From: Xanthostigma xanthostigma
Lineage: Eukaryota; Arthropoda; Insecta; Raphidioptera; Raphidiidae
Reading direction: 5' to 3'
DNA length: 64,000 nt
Assembly (NCBI GenBank): GCA_963575645.1
Contig: OY754466.1
Span: 18,640,001 to 18,704,000, forward strand
In this document: positions 1,093 through 50,010 of the stretch, piece by piece
Layout: the number at the start of each line of letters is the position of its first letter
Position numbering within the stretch: the stretch's first letter is position 1
Made by a program: the position numbers and the translations under genes
The notes under the pieces: generated by a model
The model's input: the letters and a program-made list of their open reading frames with translations, nothing else
What the model was told of the DNA's origin: nothing
Database searches by the model: none

Positions 1093-1725
1093 CATGGGTG
1101 TATCTAGGGAGGGGAAGAGGCGGGAAGCCCCCCCCCCTTGGATTTTGTAGGCTTACGTACTGTTGTCAATAAAAGTAATGTTACAATCGCGTTACGACTT
1201 ACTTTATAGTATATATTATGCGCTAACTTTTGAAAAAACCGCGGTAAAAAAACGTGCAAGAACAGAAATGGCGACGGGAAAAACAAATCTTTTGTTAGAT
1301 TAATCAAAGATATTATAATACCAATATATAAAGCTGAAGAGTTTGTTTGTTTGTTTGGTTGAACGCGCTAATCTCAGGAACTACTGGTTCGAATTGAAAA
1401 AAAAATTTTTGTTCGATAGTCCATTTATCGAGGAAGGCTATAGGCTATATAATATCACGCTACTACCAATTGGAGCGGAACATCAATGAAAAATGTTGCA
1501 AAATGTAACTCAAAATTCGTCCGTCCGACAAAAACTTTTGAACGGTAACTCCGATCATCATGAAATTTGGACACAACATTAATCTCGGTAAACTACGTGC
1601 GTATTCATGTCTCTCCCCCCATTCGTTCTTTTGCACTCAGGTGAAATCGGACGGGAGCGCTAGTAATTAATAAGAGTTAAAAATTTCTTACCCCCCTCCA
1701 GGGCCAAAAGCTGGGTACGCCCCTG
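1093..1725 (+). mobile_element. hAT-type MITE, 8-bp target duplication
   Basis: The left end reads CATGGGTGTATCTAGGGAGG and the right end, reverse-complemented, CAGGGGCGTACCCAGCTTTT; about two thirds of the first 15 positions agree. The element is flanked by the exact 8-bp duplication ttcggagc at 1085-1092 and 1726-1733, the length expected for hAT superfamily transposition. It has no transposase. A short Helitron (1315-1663) sits inside it, so the hAT insertion is the older event. A truncated relative starts near 36815 (CAGAGGCGTACCCAG). Confidence 0.8.
1315..1663 (+). mobile_element. Short non-autonomous Helitron (no tRNA module)
   Basis: The head resembles 'ctaatatataaagctgaaga' followed by a (TTTG)n run. 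The body contains 'aggaactactggttcgaa' and 'aaggctataggctatataat'. The tail 'ggtgaaatcggacgggagcg' ends in CTAG followed by T. A decayed 3' hairpin and CTRR end before a T fit Helitron transposition between A and T. This is the ~350-bp form of a family with six other copies in the window (7257, 17425, 21422, 25033, 25530 and 49438). Its 5' TC is mutated, so the start is approximate. Confidence 0.75.
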
Positions 1726-2575: not shown

Positions 2576-3288
2576 CCGGGAGGTGTTGTCAAAATTTATT
2601 AGTGATTTATCTCCGACTCAAATGTAATTGATTGAAGAGTTTAACCATTACTCTGTTCGAAATCGAAAGTCAGTCAGCGCTCCCGCGGTGGGTGTGGGCG
2701 TGGGAGGCTGTGAAACTCGTCGGAAAAACTATGAAAAAAAGTGATAAATCTGCTGATGAAAATTTGTTAGATTGTAAATAATTGATGATTAAACGTGAAA
2801 ATACTCGTCAGTCACTTTCCCGACGGCGGAAACATCGTCAGTCAGAGGTTTGAAGCCTTTAAAAGAATATCAATTGCTCAGTGTTTGAATTTAAAATCGA
2901 TATTTTCAGAACGAATAGTAGGAACTAAAACATTCTATTCCTACTATTCGTTCTGAAAATATCGATTTTAAATTCATACACTCAATTGATATTCTTTTAA
3001 AGGAAATCATTCATGACTGACGATGTTTCCGCCGTCGGGAAAGTGACTGACGAGTATTTTCACGTTTAATCATCAATTATTTACAATCTAACAAATTTTC
3101 ATCAGCCGATTTATCACTTTTTTTCATAGTTTTTCCGACGAGTTTCACAGCCTCCCACGCCCACACCCACCGCGGGAGCGCTGACTGACTTTCGATTTCG
3201 AACAGAGTAATGGTTAAACTCTTCAATCAATTACATTTGAGTCGGAGATAAATCACTGATAAATTTTGACACCACCCCCGGATTAGAA
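2576..3288. repeat. Long foldback (inverted repeat), arms ~345 bp
   Basis: The sequence from about 2576 to 2923 is reverse-complementary, with few mismatches, to 2938-3288. The loop is only about 14 bp (2924-2937). The arms contain a GC-rich core ('ctcccgcggtgggtgtgggc' and its complement near 3155-3175), which is unusual for this AT-rich window. No ORF is present. Such a structure could be a foldback transposon or MITE, or an inverted duplication. Transcribed as one RNA it would form a ~345-bp hairpin. Confidence 0.9.
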
Positions 3289-3752: not shown

Positions 3753-4940
3753 GTGACCTGTGCGAATTATTCGCACTAAATAAGTATAATAATTATCACT
3801 TTACAAAATTATTTTTTAAATATGATTGCAGGTATTCAATTCGTTTCTAATTTTGCACACTGCTTAGGTATAACGTTCTTCTTTTTGTTGTATTACAATA
3901 TGAAGCTCAGATGACAGATCGAAGAAATATTTTACTAAAATTGTCATATAGAGGCGCAAGTAGCAAAAGCGTTGAGCTAAGCCGTCAGATGGCATCATGC
4001 AGCATTGCTGTGACGTTGTTCAGCGTTGCTCGCTGTTTCAAAATTAAAACCGTCAGATGGCAGTATGCAGTATTGTGTCCGTTGTATTACAATATGAAGG
4101 TCAGATGACAGATCGAAGTGTTGACGTTGTTTCAAAATTAAAGCCGTCAGATGGCAGACGTTGTTCAGCGTTGCTGTATTTTAATTAATTTACAGAAACG
4201 AAAGCAATAATGTATTTTTTAGTTGTCGATGTCAGTAGAGCAAGCAATTATCTGTATAATGATATATAATTTATGTGGAGTAATTGTGAGGTTTTTTTTC
4301 TAAAAAGGGAGGCAAACATCTTAAACCTTAGCGTATTAATATATACTAGTGTGACCTGTGCGAATTATTCGCACTAAATTCATAACTATAATAATTATCA
4401 CTTTACAAAATTATTTTTTAAATATGATTGCAGGTGTTCAATTCGTTTCTACTTTTGCACACTGCTTATAACGTTCTTCTTTTTGTTGTATTACAATATG
4501 AAGCTCAGATGACAGATCGAAGAAATATTTTACTAAAATTGTCATATAGAGGCGCAAGTAGCAAAAGCGTTGAGCTAAGCCGTCAGATGGCATCATGCAG
4601 CATTGCTGTGACGTTGTTCAGCGTTGCCCGTCAGATGGCAGTATGCAGTATTTACAATATGAAGGTCAGATGACAGTCGAAGTGTTGACGTTGTTTCAAA
4701 ATTATATCCGTCAGATGGCAGACGTTGTTCAGCGTTGCTGTTAATTAATTAATTTACAAAAACAAAAGTAATAATAAATTTTTTAGTTGTCGATGTCAGT
4801 AGAGCAAGCAATTATCTGTAAAATGATATATAATTTATGTGGAGAAATTGTGTGGTTTTTTCTAAAAAGGGAGGCAAACATCTTTAACCTTAACGTATCT
4901 ATTAATATATATGATGATTATAAATTAGAGCGAAAGTCCG
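3753..4940 (+). repeat. Tandem duplication, ~598-bp unit, two copies
   Basis: A unit beginning 'gtgacctgtgcgaattattc' at 3753 is repeated from 4351. Shared landmarks in order are 'ttgcaggtattcaattcg'-like, 'gatgacagatcgaagaaa', 'tagaggcgcaagtagcaa', several 'ccgtcagatggca' sub-repeats, and 'gatgtcagtagagcaagcaa'. The open frames in each copy (3911-4108 and 4428-4673) share their N-terminal sequence but diverge after indels, so they are not conserved as coding. The 'ccgtcagatggca' motif recurs within each unit. Confidence 0.85.
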
Positions 4941-7256: not shown

Positions 7257-7993
7257 TCTTATACTAATATATAAAGCAGAAGAGTTTGTTTGTTTGTTTG
7301 TTTGAACGCGCTAATCTCAGGAACTACTGGTTCGAATTGAAAAAAAATTTTTTGTTGGATAGCCCATTTATCGAGGAAGGCTATAGGCTATATAATATCA
7401 CGCTACGACTAATAGGAGCGGAAAATCAATGAAAAATGTTACAGAATGTCAGTCAAAATTTTTCACAATATACTTATATTCAGGTGAGATGCCCCAATAT
7501 TAGCGACACACTCATATAGTAGCTCGATTACCTCAGTCGGTAGAGCGCTCGACTCTTAATCTCAGGGTCGTGGGTTCGCGCCCCACCTCGGGCGAATATG
7601 TTTTTAATGTTTTTTTTTTTTATTTTCTTCATTGCTTTCTTCTAAGGCTATCATTTAAATTTATTTTAGTTTAATTTACGACTAATTAAAATTAAATAAA
7701 TCTAAATAATAGGTCATTTGAAAACTATTACAGTACCTATATATAAAAATAATTTTCCTACAGTGTTTTTAATTAAATATTTATTATATTTTATTAATTA
7801 TACAGTAATAATTGATTTAAATGAAATAATTATGACTTCAAAAAAATATTTTCATCAAAAATGGAGGTTTGAGTTTAAAATTAGTAATAAAGCATGGAAC
7901 TGCCGAAAACTGCAAAAAATTTGGACCCAACATTCATCTCGGTAAACCCCATTCGTTCTTTTGCACCCGGGTGAAACCGGACGGGACCGCTAG
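7257..7993 (+). mobile_element. Non-autonomous Helitron carrying a tRNA-Lys-like module
   Basis: It starts TC ('tcttatactaatatataaag') after an A and ends 'gggaccgCTAG' before a T, as Helitrons do. Just inside the 3' end is a hairpin of the form CCCGG-gtgaaa-CCGGa, preceded by 'cattcgttcttttgcac'. The body shares 'gaactactggttcgaattga' and 'aaggctataggctatataat' with the 350-bp family members. It also has a ~390-bp insert containing a 73-nt tRNA-like sequence (7522-7594), T-runs, and AT-rich DNA. Copies at 17425-18029 and 21422-22142 have the same layout. Confidence 0.85.
7522..7594 (+). tRNA. tRNA-Lys(CTT)-like pseudogene inside a Helitron
   Basis: It is exactly 73 nt. The D-arm loop reads 'agtcggta', the anticodon loop CTCTTAA puts CTT at 34-36, and the T-arm GTGGG-TTCGCGC-CCCAC is perfect. 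The acceptor stem pairs at 6 of 7 positions counting one G-U. The anticodon stem is mostly broken (only 30-40 and 31-39 pair). Box A is altered ('ttacctcagtcgg') while box B is nearly canonical. A T-run follows within 15 bp. It is probably not a functional tRNA but a pol III-type module of the element. Confidence 0.75.
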
Positions 7994-12205: not shown

Positions 12206-14118
12206 TCTATATATATAAAAATACATGCCACTTTTCGTTGTAATTTTATAACTCAAGAACGGGCTCACCTATCCAAACCAAGTTTTGAGGCTTTGTTCGG
12301 ACTATTTAGTAGATGGTTTATGTGAAGTTTGCACAAAATCGGTCGAGTGGTTCTTCATTAATCTCATTTTTTGTAACAAATATCTATAAAAATTAATGCC
12401 AAGATATATAAAAAATGTGATAAATGAAGAACCGCTCGACCGATTTTGTGCAAACTTCACATAAACCATCTACTAAATAGTCCGAACAAAACCTAAAAAT
12501 TTGGTTTGGATAGGTGGGCCCGTTCTTGAGTTATAAAATTACAACGAAAAGTGGCATTGATTTTTATAGATATTTGTTACAAAAAATGTGATAAATGAAG
12601 AACCGCTCAACCGATTTTGTGCAAACTTCACATAAACCATCTACTAAATAGTTTGAACAAAGCCTAAAAATTTGGTTTGGATAGGTGAGCCCGTTCTTGA
12701 GTTATAAAATTACAACGAAAAGTGGCATTTTGATTTTTATAGATATAGATGCCACTTTTCGTTGTAATTTTATAACTCAAGAACGGGCTCACCTATCCAA
12801 ACCAAATTTTTAGGCTTTGTTCGGACTATTTAGTAGATGGTTTATGTGAAGTTTGCACAAAATCGGTCGAGCGGTTCTTCATTTATCACATTTTTTATAA
12901 CAAATATCTATAAAAATCAATGCCAAGATATACATAAAATGTGATAAATGAAGAACCGCTCGACTGATTTTGTGCAAACTTCACATAAACCATCTACTAA
13001 ATAGTCCGAACAAAACCTAAAAATTGGGTTTGGATAGGTGAGCCCGTTCTTGAGTTATAAAATTACAACGAAAGTGGCATTTTTTAAAAATCAATTTTTT
13101 GACGTATGAAAATACTTAAATATTGTAAGTAGGTTTTGAATTTTATACAAACAATGAAACAATTGTTTTCAAAATATTATGACAGTTAATCTTTAATTAC
13201 TATCCAAGTGAGACTTAAAATAAATACGTATTTGAAAGAAAGTTAAAAACCATTATTATTATAGGTGAGTAATTTTAATAAATAAATTATTAACCTAAAT
13301 TTGAAGCGAAAGATGCAATATCATAGATCAAGATGACGGCGAATCAGTTTTACAAGTACCGGCAAGTGTTTTAAAGACCAGTTATCCACGAATACTTTAC
13401 GCTATTTTTTTTCGAGCAAGACGGCGCAGCCGGAGTGAACCCTCGAAATAGAGCAAGTGTTTTAAAGACCAGTTATCCACGAATACTTTACGCTACTTTT
13501 TTTCGAGCACGACGGCGGAGCCGGAGTGAACCCTCGAAATAGAGCAAGTGTTTTAATGACCAGTTATCCACGAATACTTTACGCTATTTTTTTTCAAGCA
13601 CGACGGCGCAGCCGAAGTGAACCCTCGAAATAGAGCAAGTGTTTTAAAGACCAGTTATCCACGAATACTTTACGATATTTTTTTTTCGAGCGCGACGGCG
13701 CAGCCGGAGTGAACCCTCGAAATAGAGCAAGTGTTTTAAAGACCAGGTATCCACGAATACTTTACGCTATTTTTTTTTCGAGCACGACGGCGCAGCCGGA
13801 GTGAACCCTCGAAATAGAGCAAGTGTTTTAAAGACCAGTTATCCACGAATACTTTACGCTATTTTTTTTCGAGCACGACGGCGCAGCCGGAGTGAACCCT
13901 CGAAATAGAGCAAGTGTTTAAAGACCAGTTTTCCAAGAATACTTTACGCTATTTTTTTATTGACGTATGCAGTCATATATATTTCCATACACACATATAC
14001 GCACATATATATTTTAAAATAGCTAGCAATTAATAAAATAGATAGATAGATAGATGTTCCAATTAAGTTTTTTTATTATTTCACTTTATACGTAGCGAAG
14101 CACGTACAGGGCCGCTAG
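12206..14118 (+). mobile_element. Helitron-like element with inverted sub-units and minisatellite
   Basis: It begins TC ('tctatatatataaaaataca') after an A and ends 'gtacagggccgCTAG' before a T. The first ~880 bp hold five ~165-190-bp units with 'cttttcgttgtaattttata' and 'gaacgggctcacctatccaa' in alternating orientation (+, -, -, +, -). The middle has a seven-copy ~92-bp minisatellite (13362-13950). The 3' part has a TAGA run and 'tacgtagcgaagcacgtaca'. No Rep/helicase frame is present. Confidence 0.7.
13362..13950 (+). repeat. Minisatellite, seven ~92-bp units
   Basis: Each unit contains 'caagtgttttaaagaccagt', 'tatccacgaatactttacgc', a T-run, then 'cgagcacgacggcgcagccg' and 'gagtgaaccctcgaaataga'. 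Units start near 13362, 13452, 13545, 13634, 13726, 13819 and 13910. They differ by few substitutions; the last is truncated. The 'ttcgagc...ccctcgaa' edges make each unit partly self-complementary. Confidence 0.9.
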
Positions 14119-17424: not shown

Positions 17425-18029
17425 CTAGCGGTCCCGCCCGGTTTCACCCGAGTGCAAAAGAATGAATGGGGAAGGAAGGGACATGAGTACACACATTTAT
17501 CTTAGTTTTGCCGAGATGAATGTTGTGTCCATGATCGGAGTTACCGTTCAAAAGTTTTTGTCGATAAAGAGCAGTATTTAAACTTTTTTTAACTAATAAT
17601 TTTTTTAAAATGAATTAAATAAAATTAAAATAAATTTAAATGTAAGCCTTAGAAGAAAGCAATGAAAAAAATTTAAAAAAAATAAAAATATATTCACCCA
17701 ACGTGGGGCTCGAACCCACGACCCTGATATTGACAGTCGCATGCGCTACCGATTGATCTACCTGAGGTTCTGTTCTTTCATCACTAATATGAGTATATCT
17801 AGTTAGTGCATTTTACATGAATAGAAGCTTATTTTTGAAATACTTTTTGCAACATTTTTCATTAAAGCTCCGTTCCTAATGGTCGTAGCGTAATATTATA
17901 TAGCCTATAGCCTTCCTCGGAAAATGGGCTATCCAACAAAAAAAAATTATTCAATTTGAACCAGTAGTTCCTGAGATTAGCGCGTTCAAACAAACAAACA
18001 AACTCTTCAGCTTTATATATTAGTATAGA
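17425..18029 (-). mobile_element. Helitron with tRNA-like module, minus orientation
   Basis: Read on the minus strand it starts TCTATACTAATATATAAAGC after an A and ends CTAG before T. The subterminal hairpin arms CCCG(A)G...CCGGG lie just inside the 3' end. 'gaacgcgctaatctcaggaa' and 'cctatagccttcctcg' mark the shared body. The insert holds a 73-nt tRNA-like sequence at 17695-17767. The 5' TC and 3' CTAG are both intact. Confidence 0.85.
17695..17767 (-). tRNA. tRNA-like pseudogene inside a Helitron
   Basis: It is 73 nt on the minus strand. The T-arm GTGGG-TTCGAGC-CCCAC is perfect and box B is canonical. The anticodon loop is CTGTCAA (position 34-36 now GTC), while the acceptor stem no longer pairs. 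Aligned with the copy at 7522 it is clearly the same tRNA-Lys-derived module with a mutated anticodon. T-rich DNA follows on the minus strand. Confidence 0.7.
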
Positions 18030-20925: not shown

Positions 20926-21421
20926 AGTAAAGTCCGCTGCACACGAGTCTCGTTTTACAGCTAGAATCACTGCTGAGATTTGAGTTGACTGACGCGCGGT
21001 CACAAGATAGATTACAAAATTAGAACCGGCGCTATTTTTCGTGCTAGTTTCTCTACTTGTTTTGAGCAAGAGCCAATCAGGAAACTGTATCTTGTCACGT
21101 GGGCGACATGGATAAACGCCCACAAACACGGCGTCATAGTGTGTGTTGGTGTTCTGTTCAGAGACAATAAACGTTCACTTTTGTTAACACTCGAACTATC
21201 ACTGCGCGTGCACCAAACACATTTACAAAGCAAGCTTCAATACACGCATCTTATGTATGGAGGGTAGAGGGTAAAAATGAAAATGTGTCCATCTGAAAGC
21301 GTCAAATAACAGTTCAAAAAGTGACCAGAATGGCGCTAGTGTAGAAAAAGTATTAATGTAAACTTAGCAGTTGTAGACGTAGTGAAGTGTGCTGAAAAAA
21401 AAAATTTAATACTAACGGTTC

Positions 21422-22142
21422 CGCCCGGTTTCACCCGGGTGCAAAAGAATGAATGGGGAAGGAAGGGACATGAGTACGCACATCCATCTTAGTTTACCGA
21501 AATGAATGTTGTGTCCAAACTTCAGAATGATCGGCGTTACCGTTCAAAAGTTTTTGTCGTTAAAAAGCAGTATTTATACTTTTTTTAAGTAATAAATTTC
21601 TTTTAATATAATAAATATTTAATTGAAAACACTGTAGGAAAATTATTTTTATATAGGTGCCTATAGTTGTAACAGTTTTCAAATGAGCTATTAATTAGAT
21701 TTATTTAATTTTAATTAGTCGTAATAAAATTTTAAAAAATTGAAATGTAAGCCTTAGAAGAATGCAATGTAGAAAATAAAAAAATATATATATATTTGCT
21801 GACGTAGGGCTTGAACTCTAGACCCTGGCATTAAGAGTCTTACACTCTACCGATTGAGCTATCCGGACTTGTATACTTGGTGTGCTAATATTGCAATATT
21901 TAGTTAAGGCATTTCACCTGATAATATTTGTCGGACGGACTAATTTTGAGTTGCATCTTACAACATTTTTCATTGATGCTCCGCTCCAATTGGTCGTAGC
22001 GTAATATTATATAGCCTATAGCCTTCCTCGATAAATGGGCTATTCAACAAAACAAAAATGTTTCAATTCGAACCAGTAGTTTCAGAGATTATCGCGTTCA
22101 AACAAACAATCAAACTCTTCAGTTTTATATATTAGTATAGAT
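21422..22142 (-). mobile_element. Helitron with tRNA-Lys-like module, minus orientation
   Basis: Its minus-strand start is TCTATACTAATATATAAAAC after A; its 3' end reads GTTAG|T (one mutation from CTAG). The inside hairpin is CACCCGGGTGAAACCGGGCG. It shares the AT-rich insert with the 7257 copy, including 'acagttttcaaatgagct' and 'tgtaagccttagaag'. The module at 21796-21868 is described separately. Confidence 0.85.
21796..21868 (-). tRNA. tRNA-Lys(CTT)-like pseudogene inside a Helitron
   Basis: It is 73 nt on the minus strand. Box A 'tagctcaatcgg' is near consensus. The anticodon loop CTCTTAA gives CTT. The T-arm is degenerate ('tagag-ttcaagc-cctac') and the acceptor does not pair. It is followed by a T-rich stretch. 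It is the same module as at 7522, in a differently decayed state. Confidence 0.7.
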
Positions 22143-25032: not shown

Positions 25033-25210
25033 CTAGCGGTCCCGCCCGGTTTCACCCGGGTGAAAAAGAACGAATAGTGAAGGGAGGGAGATGAGTACAC
25101 ACATTCATCTTAGTTTACCGAGATGATTCGGCAGTTCCCTGCTTTGTTACTTTATTTTACTCAAACCTCTATTTTTAATGAAAGTATTTACATGTAATGC
25201 TATGTGTCAT
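25033..25210 (-). mobile_element. Helitron 3' fragment, minus strand
   Basis: CTAG (complement) is at 25033-25036, followed by 'cggtcccgcccggtttcacc' and 'cgaatagtgaagggaggg'. The next 85 bp ('cggcagttccctgctttgtt') match the insert side of the tRNA-bearing Helitron at 7257 (inverse), so this is a truncated tRNA-class copy without the tRNA. Confidence 0.7.
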
Positions 25211-25529: not shown

Positions 25530-25888
25530 TTATATATAGATATAAAGCTGAAGTGTGTTTGTTTGGTGGAACGTGCTAATCTCAGGAACTACTGGTTCGA
25601 AATGAAAAATTTTTGTTTGTTGGGATAGTCCATTTATCGAGGTAGGCTACAGGCTATATAATATCACGCTACGAGTTACGACCAATAGGAGCGGAGTATC
25701 AATGAAAAATATTGCAACATATAACTCAAAATTTGTCCGTCCGACAAAAACTTTTGAACGGTAACTCCGATCATCATGAAATTTGGACACAACATTCATC
25801 TCGGTAAACTAAGATGAACGTGCGTACTAATGTCCCTCCCCCACATTCGTTCTTTTGCACCCGGGTGAAACCGGGCGGGACTACTATA
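25530..25888 (+). mobile_element. Short non-autonomous Helitron
   Basis: It has the '...agctgaagtgtgtttgtttg' head and the 'aggctacaggctatataata' and 'gtccgacaaaaacttttgaa' body. Its 3' hairpin and tail 'cgggtgaaaccgggcgggac' are intact, but the terminal CTAG is mutated to CTAC. It is the 350-bp form without tRNA. Confidence 0.75.
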
Positions 25889-28605: not shown

Positions 28606-29140
28606 CTTAAAAAAAAAACTTCGGAGAAGTAAAAACTTCGTTCTGTGCTAAATTCAAAAACTTGAGGCGACTGATCTTAAGATTATAACTTAAAAAAAAA
28701 GAATTTCGAGGCAGACAAGAAATTGAAATCAAGCTCGAAATTCTGTGCGTAAGACGTCGAAAAAAAATGAATTTCGAGGCAGACAAGGAATTGAAATCCA
28801 ACCTTGAAATTCTGTGCTTATAAAAGCTACAAGAGCAACAGCAAAAAAAATGCAAAGACGGTGTTCGCATAACTCCTTTAGTTATCACTAAAAAAACGCC
28901 GTCTGTGCACTTTTTTTTGCTGTTGCTCTTGTAGCTTTTATAAGCACAGAATTTCAAGGTTGGATTTCAATTCCTTGTCTGCCTCGAAATTCATTTTTTT
29001 TCGACGTCTTACGCACAGAATTTCGAGCTTGATTTCAATTTCTTGTCTGCCTCGAAATTCTTTTTTTTTAAGTTATAATCTTAAGATTCAGTCGCCTCAA
29101 GTTTTTGAATTTAGCACAGAACGAAGTTTTTTTTTTAAGA
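28606..29140. repeat. Foldback element, arms ~245 bp
   Basis: The left arm (about 28606-28858) is nearly perfectly inverted at 28900-29140. The spacer is only about 40 bp. Each arm carries two direct sub-repeats containing 'gaatttcgaggcagacaag' and 'cgaaattctgtgc'. Both strands show related frames (28607-28957 minus, 28960-29298 plus) because of the symmetry; they are not evidence of a gene. Confidence 0.9.
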
Positions 29141-32296: not shown

Positions 32297-32635
32297 CGTT
32301 TTCCCTCTAAAGTTTCCGAAAAATGTCGTTTTGACGACATGTAAAAAATTTATAGATACCTCCTGTTTGTTTTTTAATTGGATAGCTTAAAAACTTCAAC
32401 CAAAACGCTAAAACAATGTTCTCTGACAAATAACATGAACCATTTAAAATGTCTGACACCTCGAATATGTCGAACATATTCGAGGTGTCAGACATTTTAA
32501 ATGGTTCATACTATTTGATTTTAGCGTTTTGGTTGAAATTTTTAAGCTATCCAATTAAAAAAACAAACAGTATCTATAAATTTTGACATGTCGTCAAAAC
32601 GACATCTTTCGGAAACTTTAGAGGGAAAACGAAAT
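32297..32635. repeat. Foldback, arms ~165 bp, no spacer
   Basis: The arms meet at a perfect palindrome centred near 32468 ('cgaatatgtcgaacatattcg'-like, flanked by 'gacacct' and 'aggtgtc'). They extend outward through 'accatttaaaatgtctgaca', 'cttaaaaacttcaaccaaaa' and 'gtcgttttgacgacatg' to 'ccctctaaagtttccgaaa'. Small indels separate the arms. No ORF. Confidence 0.88.
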
Positions 32636-43479: not shown

Positions 43480-44445
43480 TAATGTTGTAAAAATCGATTT
43501 CTTAAAAGCAGCATAGTTTTTATTTCTAATATCTACGGCTAGTTTATTAAATAGTAGGTACTGTACACATAATATGTCCTGCGCTGCTTTCAAAAAAGGC
43601 GAGACGATGCTTCTCAACAGTAAGATTTCTTACATTGTAGTCATGGATATTAGATCTCTTAGTAGTCTTAGTTAAATCAGCATTATTATTATAAATATAT
43701 TCGAGATGTCAGTGGCACTCCAGAACGGTAACCCATACCTGGCAAAAGACAAGAATGATCCAAAGTAAGCGCTTCTTACCACATTAGAGCTAACAATGTA
43801 TTTTATTTGTCGAACAGAATAACATTGCCGACTGAGTTTTATCGCCAGCTGAGTTTTATGCTGTGACCAGCTGAGTTGCTTATCTATAGATGCATGCATG
43901 CAGTCAGCAGTGGTGGATATTTTTTATTATTATTATTATTAACGTGCGCAGCAGCTTAGGCTATATGCACGAGTCTAAGGTGGATATTTTTATTTTACAA
44001 TTTTGATAATTAAAACTGTCAGGACGAACTGTTTTACTTTTCCAAATCTTCTTGGTTTCCGGACTTGTATGCCGTGGTCCGTTGGTTTTACTACCAAGGT
44101 AAGGTAAGGTAGTAATACCAATGGACCACGGCATACAAGTCTGGAAACCAAGAAGATTTGGATCAACACCGGCCGTGAAAGCCTACACACTTGTTTTACT
44201 TTTAGCTGATCTAAAAAGAATACTCTTAGTTTTATTTGTGTTTAGAATTAGTTTGTTCATATTAAACCATGAATTTGCTAAGTCAAGAAGAGAGATGATT
44301 GCAGATATAGCATCTTGCATGAACGATCAGGGTCGTGTCGTCAGCATAAGATAAAAGCAAATCTGGATCAACTGCATGTTTATTTAAGAAAACGGAGAGA
44401 TCATTTAGATATAAAGAAGTTTCATAACGAAAGTTAAGAGTGTAT
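43480..44445 (-). pseudogene. Non-LTR retrotransposon reverse transcriptase relic
   Basis: On the minus strand, around 44300-44400, a frame reads NKHAVDPDLLLSYADDTTLI; YADD is the catalytic reverse transcriptase motif. Further along, at 43899-43672, comes DKQLSWSQHKTQLAIKLSRQ, then CYSVRQIKYI and AYFGSFLSFARYG, typical of the thumb region of Jockey/CR1-like LINEs in moths. A 'DYNVRNLTVEK' tail follows near 43640. The frame is broken and split by the inverted repeat at 44036-44163. It lies in the same orientation as the host gene. It is not functional. Confidence 0.8.
44036..44163. repeat. Inverted repeat within the LINE relic
   Basis: 'ccaaatcttcttggtttccg', 'gacttgtatgccgtggtcc' at 44041-44082 is repeated in inverse at 44121-44163 with one or two mismatches, around a ~40-bp centre with 'aaggtaaggtaaggtagt'. 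It separates the YADD part of the reverse transcriptase relic from the thumb part. Confidence 0.85.
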
Positions 44446-49364: not shown

Positions 49365-50010
49365 TGCTCCCTGCGACTCCGCACGCGATATTGTGATTAA
49401 ACCGCGGTAGCGTCAACAGTATTCGAGTCTTCGGCTATCTATACTAATATATAAAGCTGAAGAGTTTGTTTGTTTGTTTGGTTGAACGCGCTAATCTCAG
49501 GAACTACTGGTTCGAAATTAAAAAAAAAATTTTGTTGGATAGTCCATTTATCGAGGAAGGCTATAGGCTATATAATATCACTCTACGACCAATAAGAGCT
49601 GAGCATCAATGAAAAATGTTTCAAAATAAGTATATAACTCAAAATTAGTCCGTCCGACAAAAACTTTTGAACGGTAACTCCGATCATCATGAAATTTTGA
49701 CACAACATTCATCCCGGTACACTATACTTAAGATAAACGTGCATACTCATGTCCCTCCCCCCCAATCGTTCTTTTGCACCCGGGTGAAACCGGGCGGGAT
49801 CGCTAGTATATTGTATATAAGATAAAAGCATATAGCCTAAGTTATCGTTTAAAACAGCAGCTGTAGATATGTCTGCAGTGAAAATCCCGTCAAAACCAGT
49901 CCAGTCGTTTTGGAGATATATAATATAAGGCTTCAACACTCCACTATATACCTATATACTTACTGTTGTCGCTACCCGTATTTCATCACAATCGCGGGCG
50001 GAGCCGCTGG
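49365..50010 (-). mobile_element. Helitron-like family B copy, minus, split by Helitron A
   Basis: On the minus strand the 3' end CTAG (49363-49366) and 'cggagtcgcagggagcagct' are at the left. The rest resumes after 49806 with 'tatataagataaaagcatat', 'ccgtcaaaaccagtccagtc' and 'gttttggagatatataatat'. The insertion is the intact Helitron 49438-49806. The right end near 'cacaatcgcgggcggagccg' is uncertain. Confidence 0.55.
49438..49806 (+). mobile_element. Short non-autonomous Helitron, intact
   Basis: TCTATACTAATATATAAAGC after an A; 3' hairpin CCCGG-gtgaaa-CCGGG and CTAG before T. It is 369 bp, with no tRNA module. It is nested in an opposite-strand family B element. This is the cleanest copy for defining the family's termini. 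Confidence 0.9.

Follow-up and report, generated by a model that had tools for sequence, protein, structure and literature searches.

Helitrons bearing a tRNA-Lys-derived module that was probably captured once and amplified as a passenger

Among described transposable elements, HelibatN3 of Myotis and Helraiser come close to the elements analysed here: in the available text of the report (PMC4778049), they combine Helitron termini and a 3' hairpin with a captured promoter segment and a high copy number, and the same features are found in the present elements. The promoter taken up by HelibatN3 is that of a protein-coding gene, whereas the putative one described here is of the tRNA-internal pol III type (PMC4778049 for HelibatN3, in its accessible part). 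According to the same portion of that report, experiments with Helraiser show that bypass of the 3' hairpin lets a Helitron pick up the DNA next to it (PMC4778049). A tRNA gene has likewise been linked to Helitron sequence in Arabidopsis, where a tRNA-Cys cluster overlaps annotated Helitrons; that cluster is a local array, whereas the copies described here are dispersed and have clear ends, and three Helitron-finding programs gave no reliable prediction over the tRNA-Cys genes in the available sections of that study (PMC10701932). The tRNA-derived SINEs of Lepidoptera, as outlined in the accessible part of their description (PMC8010984), also carry a tRNA-derived module in a high-copy element, but the module reported here is not 5'-terminal, is followed immediately by a T-run and is associated with Helitron ends and no SINE tail. 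Helitrons are more abundant in Operophtera brumata than in Bombyx mori, as stated in the accessible text of PMC4558862. In open-access titles and abstract openings, no amplified Helitron with a tRNA gene was found, and a repeat-database annotation of such an element may exist.

The window, that is, the whole 64-kb stretch of DNA that was analysed, contains three long elements with the Helitron termini that the original prediction had assigned to them (below, a slash marks the element boundary). Copy 1 (7257..7993, plus strand, 737 nt) has the 5' end TCTTATACTAATATATAAAGC and a 3' hairpin followed by CTAG/T, and copy 2 (17425..18029, minus strand, 605 nt) has a TC start and a CTAG/T end. Copy 3 (21412..22141, minus strand), which represents the 21422 type, has a TC start as well, and its 3' end reads TTAG/T. 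The 5' ends of all three long elements consist of TC and a stretch like TATACTAATATATAAA, and in each of them a small hairpin precedes the 3' terminal motif. The boundaries first proposed for copies 1 and 2 were retained, and the 3' end of copy 3 was moved from 21422 to 21412. Short copies had been placed near 1315, 25530 and 49438, and the insert is indeed absent from each of them: they lie on the plus strand at 1315..1663, with the uninterrupted junction GTCCGTCCGACAAAAACTTTTGAACGG at 1519-1545, at 25530..25884, with approximate ends, and at 49438..49806, with an approximate 5' end. A BLAST comparison within the window also revealed a 3' fragment of the same Helitron family at 25033..25189 (minus strand), which corresponds to positions 588-737 of copy 1; this truncated fragment lies close to the short copy at 25530.

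The window holds other repeats as well. Near-perfect long inverted repeats of fold-back or MITE-like appearance were observed at window positions 2856-3005, 12306-12477, 12691-12786, 28811-28950, 32427-32518 and 44057-44146. The miRNA matches at these six stretches all fell below the Rfam gathering score and were set aside.

Each of the three long copies holds a tRNA-like segment in the same relative place and orientation. In copy 1 this module occupies 7522..7594 (plus strand, 73 nt, anticodon CTT; T-runs at 7601-7605 and 7610-7621), in copy 2 it occupies 17695..17767 (minus strand, 73 nt, anticodon GTC), and in copy 3 it occupies 21797..21868 (minus strand, 72 nt, anticodon CTT); a T-run follows every one of them. 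Shared placement, anticodons and T-runs thus all agree with what had been claimed, but the proposed length of exactly 73 nt in each copy does not hold for copy 3. Lengths vary genome-wide too: 36 of the 40 copy 1-like copies and 23 of the 32 members of an older group have a module of 73 nt, and 17 of the 20 members of the 21422 type have one of 72 nt. Aligned with a sequence that we take to be the metazoan tRNA-Lys(CTT), the modules of copies 1, 2 and 3 are identical at 62, 61 and 56 of 73 positions, respectively. The whole 64-kb window was also searched against 4227 Rfam families, with matches recorded to E<=5. Of the three modules, only that of copy 1 matched the tRNA family RF00005, with 28.9 bits (gathering score 29, E 0.064); the other two gave no tRNA match at E<=5. 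A real tRNA gene in the window was rejected, since ARAGORN called none of the three modules a tRNA and Rfam gave no tRNA at the gathering score.

This layout is wider in the genome than is visible in the window alone. Among 42 copies, comprising 39 fetched relatives of copy 1 and the three copies of the window, the module had the same place and orientation in all 42, with lengths of 73 nt in 37, 72 nt in three, 74 nt in one and 59 nt in one. Ten module loci, that of the window copy among them, were fetched with wide flanks, and all ten are bordered by Helitron sequence on either side. A T-run of at least four residues occurs within 45 nt downstream of the module in 112 of 113 copies, at a median distance of 6 nt, and looks like the tRNA gene's own terminator. 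A 35-base signature that runs from box B through the 3' end of the tRNA into the T-run (up to two mismatches) occurs at 4,285 places, compared with 0 for a reversed-pattern control; the Helitron context of these places was not confirmed individually, and by its letters the signature should miss the 21422 type. Unrelated positions or orientations of the tRNA-like segments, or a lack of further such Helitrons, would have spoken against the original prediction, and neither was seen. The original observation of tRNA-bearing Helitrons is partly confirmed as real.

The genome-wide searches covered the readable part of an assembly of 623 Mb. First-look candidates, which are not the same as confirmed copies, numbered 5,048 with copy 1 as the query, 4,422 with copy 2, 6,250 with copy 3 and 2,550 with the short form. 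With copy 1, 40 places were scored, namely the window copy and 39 others at 87-93% identity. The 39 other places scored with copy 2 showed 94-96% identity, and the subfamily of copy 2 is the tightest and probably the most recently amplified one. The 40 scored main matches of the short form span the uninterrupted form. The 3' end CTAG/T was found in 35 of 40 young copies (copy 1 type), 16 of 20 copies of the 21422 type and 19 of 23 short copies; in a tRNA-rich old group it was found in 5 of 20, and the 3' match is missing in 13 of those 20 fetched stretches. A strict pattern for the 5' start, A/TC, was satisfied by 29 of 40 young, 10 of 20 21422-type, 12 of 23 short and 8 of 20 tRNA-rich old copies; in the remaining copies, TC is preceded by a base other than A, the end is degenerate, or the pattern found no match. 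The 3' hairpin (CCCGG-GTGAAA-CCGGG) has a 5-bp stem and a folding energy of -5.4 kcal/mol and lies 8 nt upstream of CTAG; that of the young form is weaker (-4.1 kcal/mol).

When the flanks of 59 fetched long and short copies were compared, four pairs showed some flank similarity over more than 100 nt and no pair was alike on both sides, indicating that these copies are independent insertions and not segmental duplicates. The elements form a large family of non-autonomous Helitrons. An autonomous partner with the same termini was not found; this result covers one of the 89 genome matches to Helitron_like_N, L132, whose ends differ. By eye, L132 (G000:C4:22516800-22523300, minus strand) contains an uninterrupted 1,560-codon Helitron-type reading frame, followed by repeats.

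How the module entered the family can be read from the junctions. In copy 3, the insert that holds the module spans 21560..21926 (minus strand, 367 nt), is bordered by CGACAAA on both sides (21927-21933 and 21553-21559), and consists of 58 nt, the tRNA and then 237 nt of AT-rich DNA. All 23 short copies have GTCCGTCCGACAAAAACTTTTGAACGG uninterrupted, with small differences allowed, and in all 20 copies of the 21422 type the insert is bordered by matches to GTCCGTCCGACAAA (left) and CGACAAAAACTTTTGAACGG (right). The left flanking motif was not matched by any of 20 old or 40 young copies; the right one was matched by 7 of the 20 old copies and by none of the 40 young ones, and it is the sole motif matched by copy 2. 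Because the junctions are altered in these other groups, the original junction was read from the 21422 type alone. All groups that were compared carry the insert at one and the same site, which argues for a single gain followed by spread. The proposal that the module was gained once thus holds as to the single event; it does not hold as to the size of the gained piece, which is about 367 nt and not 73. On the evidence of these junctions, the gained unit is larger than the 73 nt and comprises an entire tRNA gene with adjoining DNA. The 7-bp repeat could reflect microhomology at capture, or it could be the target-site duplication of another inserted element, and an internal insert like that of copy 3 would need a further step beyond the read-through described for Helraiser.

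The direction of this change could also be reversed, with the tRNA-bearing form ancestral and the short forms produced by deletions between the CGACAAA repeats. We regard such an origin as unlikely. Deletion between direct repeats could have produced the junctions, but, to judge from group majorities and junctions, the short copies resemble the tRNA-rich old group in their flank variants and not the only group that keeps both repeats, so that the deletions would have required more than one step.

The source of the captured tRNA was traced by a genome search with tRNA-Lys(CTT), which gave 40 scored places, the best 20 of which were fetched. Beyond the insert, Helitron sequence was present at 19 of these best 20, and the remaining one, L114, showed insert DNA only. 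ARAGORN called 17 tRNAs in the 20 loci (14 Lys-CTT, one Lys-TTT, one Asn and one Gln), and the Rfam tRNA family matched all 20 with 36.6-57.6 bits, values that belong to loci picked for tRNA similarity; the host Lys-TTT genes reach 74.5 bits for comparison. Apart from a single base in the anticodon stem, the majority sequence of the tRNA-rich old group is identical to tRNA-Lys(CTT), and it keeps 20 of 21 stem pairs. Since the 20 loci were picked by tRNA similarity, their closeness to the tRNA is no evidence of constraint, yet it fixes the ancestry. With a group majority only one base away from tRNA-Lys(CTT), the module very probably derives from a tRNA-Lys gene that was taken up together with its terminator, and the tRNA-Lys origin put forward for the module is borne out by the 19 of the 20 best matches that are Helitron-borne.

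In the readable assembly, tRNA-Lys(CTT) was found at 0 places within 0-1 mismatch, an absence that the N stretches make uninterpretable, and the donor locus was not found there. Four places have two mismatches, namely three Helitron copies and L114. At L114 (G000:C2:36419224-36420076, minus strand), a near-perfect tRNA-Lys(CTT) is followed by insert DNA; unrelated DNA begins about 37 nt before the tRNA, and there are no Helitron ends in the 853 nt fetched. L114 would be either a Helitron copy that has been truncated or a sequence more closely related to the donor.

Other tRNA-like sequences were noticed in the assembly. L133 (G000:C2:4642550-4643350) contains, at about positions 371-434, a lone tRNA-Lys(CTT)-like sequence outside Helitrons, which is degenerate (Rfam 43.8 bits), with an intact anticodon arm and a broken 5' acceptor side. 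Five tRNA-like matches at about positions 1490-1600 of L075-L079 have in common a different tRNA-derived sequence, and several of them also have a common downstream stretch; this sequence is perhaps the head of a SINE.

A tRNA-derived SINE, or another small element, might itself have jumped into a Helitron, in which case the insert would not be a captured gene. Such SINEs are common in Lepidoptera, as stated in the accessible part of PMC8010984, the 7-bp direct repeat around the insert of the 21422 type is what a target-site duplication would give, and L114 has insert DNA with unrelated DNA on the left and no Helitron ends. The copy 3 insert, however, does not have the layout of a tRNA-derived SINE: the tRNA is not at the 5' edge but is preceded by the 58 nt, the T-run comes directly after the tRNA, and the right edge has no simple-repeat tail. 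Moreover, nearly all of the best tRNA-Lys matches (19/20) and all of the widely flanked module loci (10/10) are in Helitron sequence. An origin by insertion of such an element is distinctly improbable in our judgement.

A question raised by the presence of a pol III module in so many copies is whether it has been maintained. Three groups were picked regardless of the module, with 40 copy 1-like, 20 copy 3-like and 32 older copies. The older group came from a search with the sequence that follows the module; of 39 other places, 35 were fetched, and L165, L173 and L184, in which the module is broken by a deletion, were dropped from the counts, which left 32 of the 35. Alignment columns with many gaps were removed, and the selection tests did not include the tRNA-rich old group, whose choice had been based on its module. 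The mean pairwise differences of flank and module were 0.056 and 0.079 in the copy 1-like group, 0.069 and 0.078 in the copy 3-like group, and 0.080 and 0.119 in the older group. In contrast, those of the tRNA-rich old group were 0.173 and 0.050, a trend in the opposite direction that is expected from choice by module similarity; this group lends no independent support either. The claim that the module has been kept is therefore not supported, as its divergence equals or exceeds that of the flanks in the samples taken without regard to it.

The putative promoter boxes were examined in the same groups. The ratio of shared variants (in at least three copies) to private ones was 15:14 in boxes A and B (23 sites), 38:36 in the rest of the module (50 sites) and 75:119 in the flanks, with p values of 1.0 for boxes versus the rest of the module, 0.22 for boxes versus flanks and 0.07 for the rest versus flanks; with 23 box sites this test has low power and would miss weak constraint, and the subfamily structure makes variants non-independent. 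Outside CpG, differences from the group majority in boxes versus flanks amounted to 5.3 versus 3.1% in the copy 1-like, 3.8 versus 3.8% in the copy 3-like and 9.1 versus 4.3% in the older group. Private variants per letter in boxes versus the rest of the module were 1.31 versus 1.41%, 1.30 versus 1.64% and 1.91 versus 2.86%, in the same order. Box B is consensus-like in the majority sequence of every group, where the copy 2 group is a single copy. An impression from three group majorities that changes avoid the boxes was removed by the older sample picked without regard to the module.

The tRNA features themselves change between subfamilies. The anticodon is CTT in 35 of 40 copy 1-like and 17 of 20 copy 3-like copies, and GTT in 28 of 32 older ones, which places the change to GTT in a source element; such a subfamily-wide switch from CTT to GTT in a transposon-borne tRNA can be seen, for example, in L155, L169 and L187. 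The stem pairs kept by the group majorities fall from 20 of 21 to 18, 16 and 14, with 15 in copy 2. In copies not chosen by module, Rfam recognized a tRNA in 12 of 20 copy 1-like (20 of 39 loci were used), 0 of 19 21422-type and 8 of 20 older copies (20 of 35 loci), and ARAGORN did so in 0 of 39, 0 of 19 and 5 of 20, respectively. The 21422 type was amplified despite having no recognisable tRNA, as was the subfamily of copy 2 despite an altered anticodon, its module being known from copy 2 alone.

These data bear on the idea that the pol III module is functional, such that TFIIIC/TFIIIB binding or transcription opens chromatin or helps replication or transposition and the boxes are selected in source copies. 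In its favour, box B is intact in the majority of every group and box A is near-consensus in most, private variants are slightly rarer in the boxes than elsewhere in the module, the T-run is kept almost throughout (112/113), and the subfamilies bearing the module are successful. However, as regards shared variants the boxes vary no less than the remainder of the module, outside CpG they differ from the majority as much as or more than the flanks, a box A change at a conserved C, TAGGTCAGTCGG, occurs in 9 of 32 copies of one old subfamily, and the short copies without the module were amplified as well; a functional module is accordingly very improbable. The suggested effect of pol III on the element did not find support, as boxes A and B show no extra constraint and anticodon and stems change between subfamilies. 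To judge from the letters, a pol III role of the module is not supported. With a T-run about 6 nt after the module, any pol III transcript would end at roughly tRNA size, well before the end of the element, and would provide no copy of the whole element.

Overall, these results point to a captured tRNA-Lys gene amplified as a Helitron passenger, which we consider the best reading and quite likely correct, and the interpretation offered in the original prediction is partly supported. A short Helitron would once have taken up host DNA with a tRNA-Lys gene, leaving the 7-bp repeat at the junction, either by Helitron capture during transposition or by repair; we infer that the gene was captured together with host flanks. 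The long form may then have multiplied by rolling-circle transposition, with transposase provided in trans by an autonomous Helitron. The tRNA would have been carried along as a passenger, decaying in thousands of places, so that one old subfamily still holds a nearly complete tRNA-Lys(CTT) and others hold GTT or GTC anticodons or have lost stem pairing.

There is a slim chance that, among the thousands of tRNA-Lys(CTT) copies carried by Helitrons, some act as live pol III genes. If they do, the transposon would seed new tRNA genes genome-wide, some of them with changed anticodons, and Helitron copies would supply part of the host tRNA-Lys(CTT) pool. A clear capture of a tRNA at thousands of copies would extend the known cases to an entire pol III gene, terminator included. 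Elements of this kind could lead to an overcount of tRNA genes when genomes are annotated, and the many tRNA copies of graded age would offer a natural experiment on pol III occupancy, silencing and the birth of tRNA genes.
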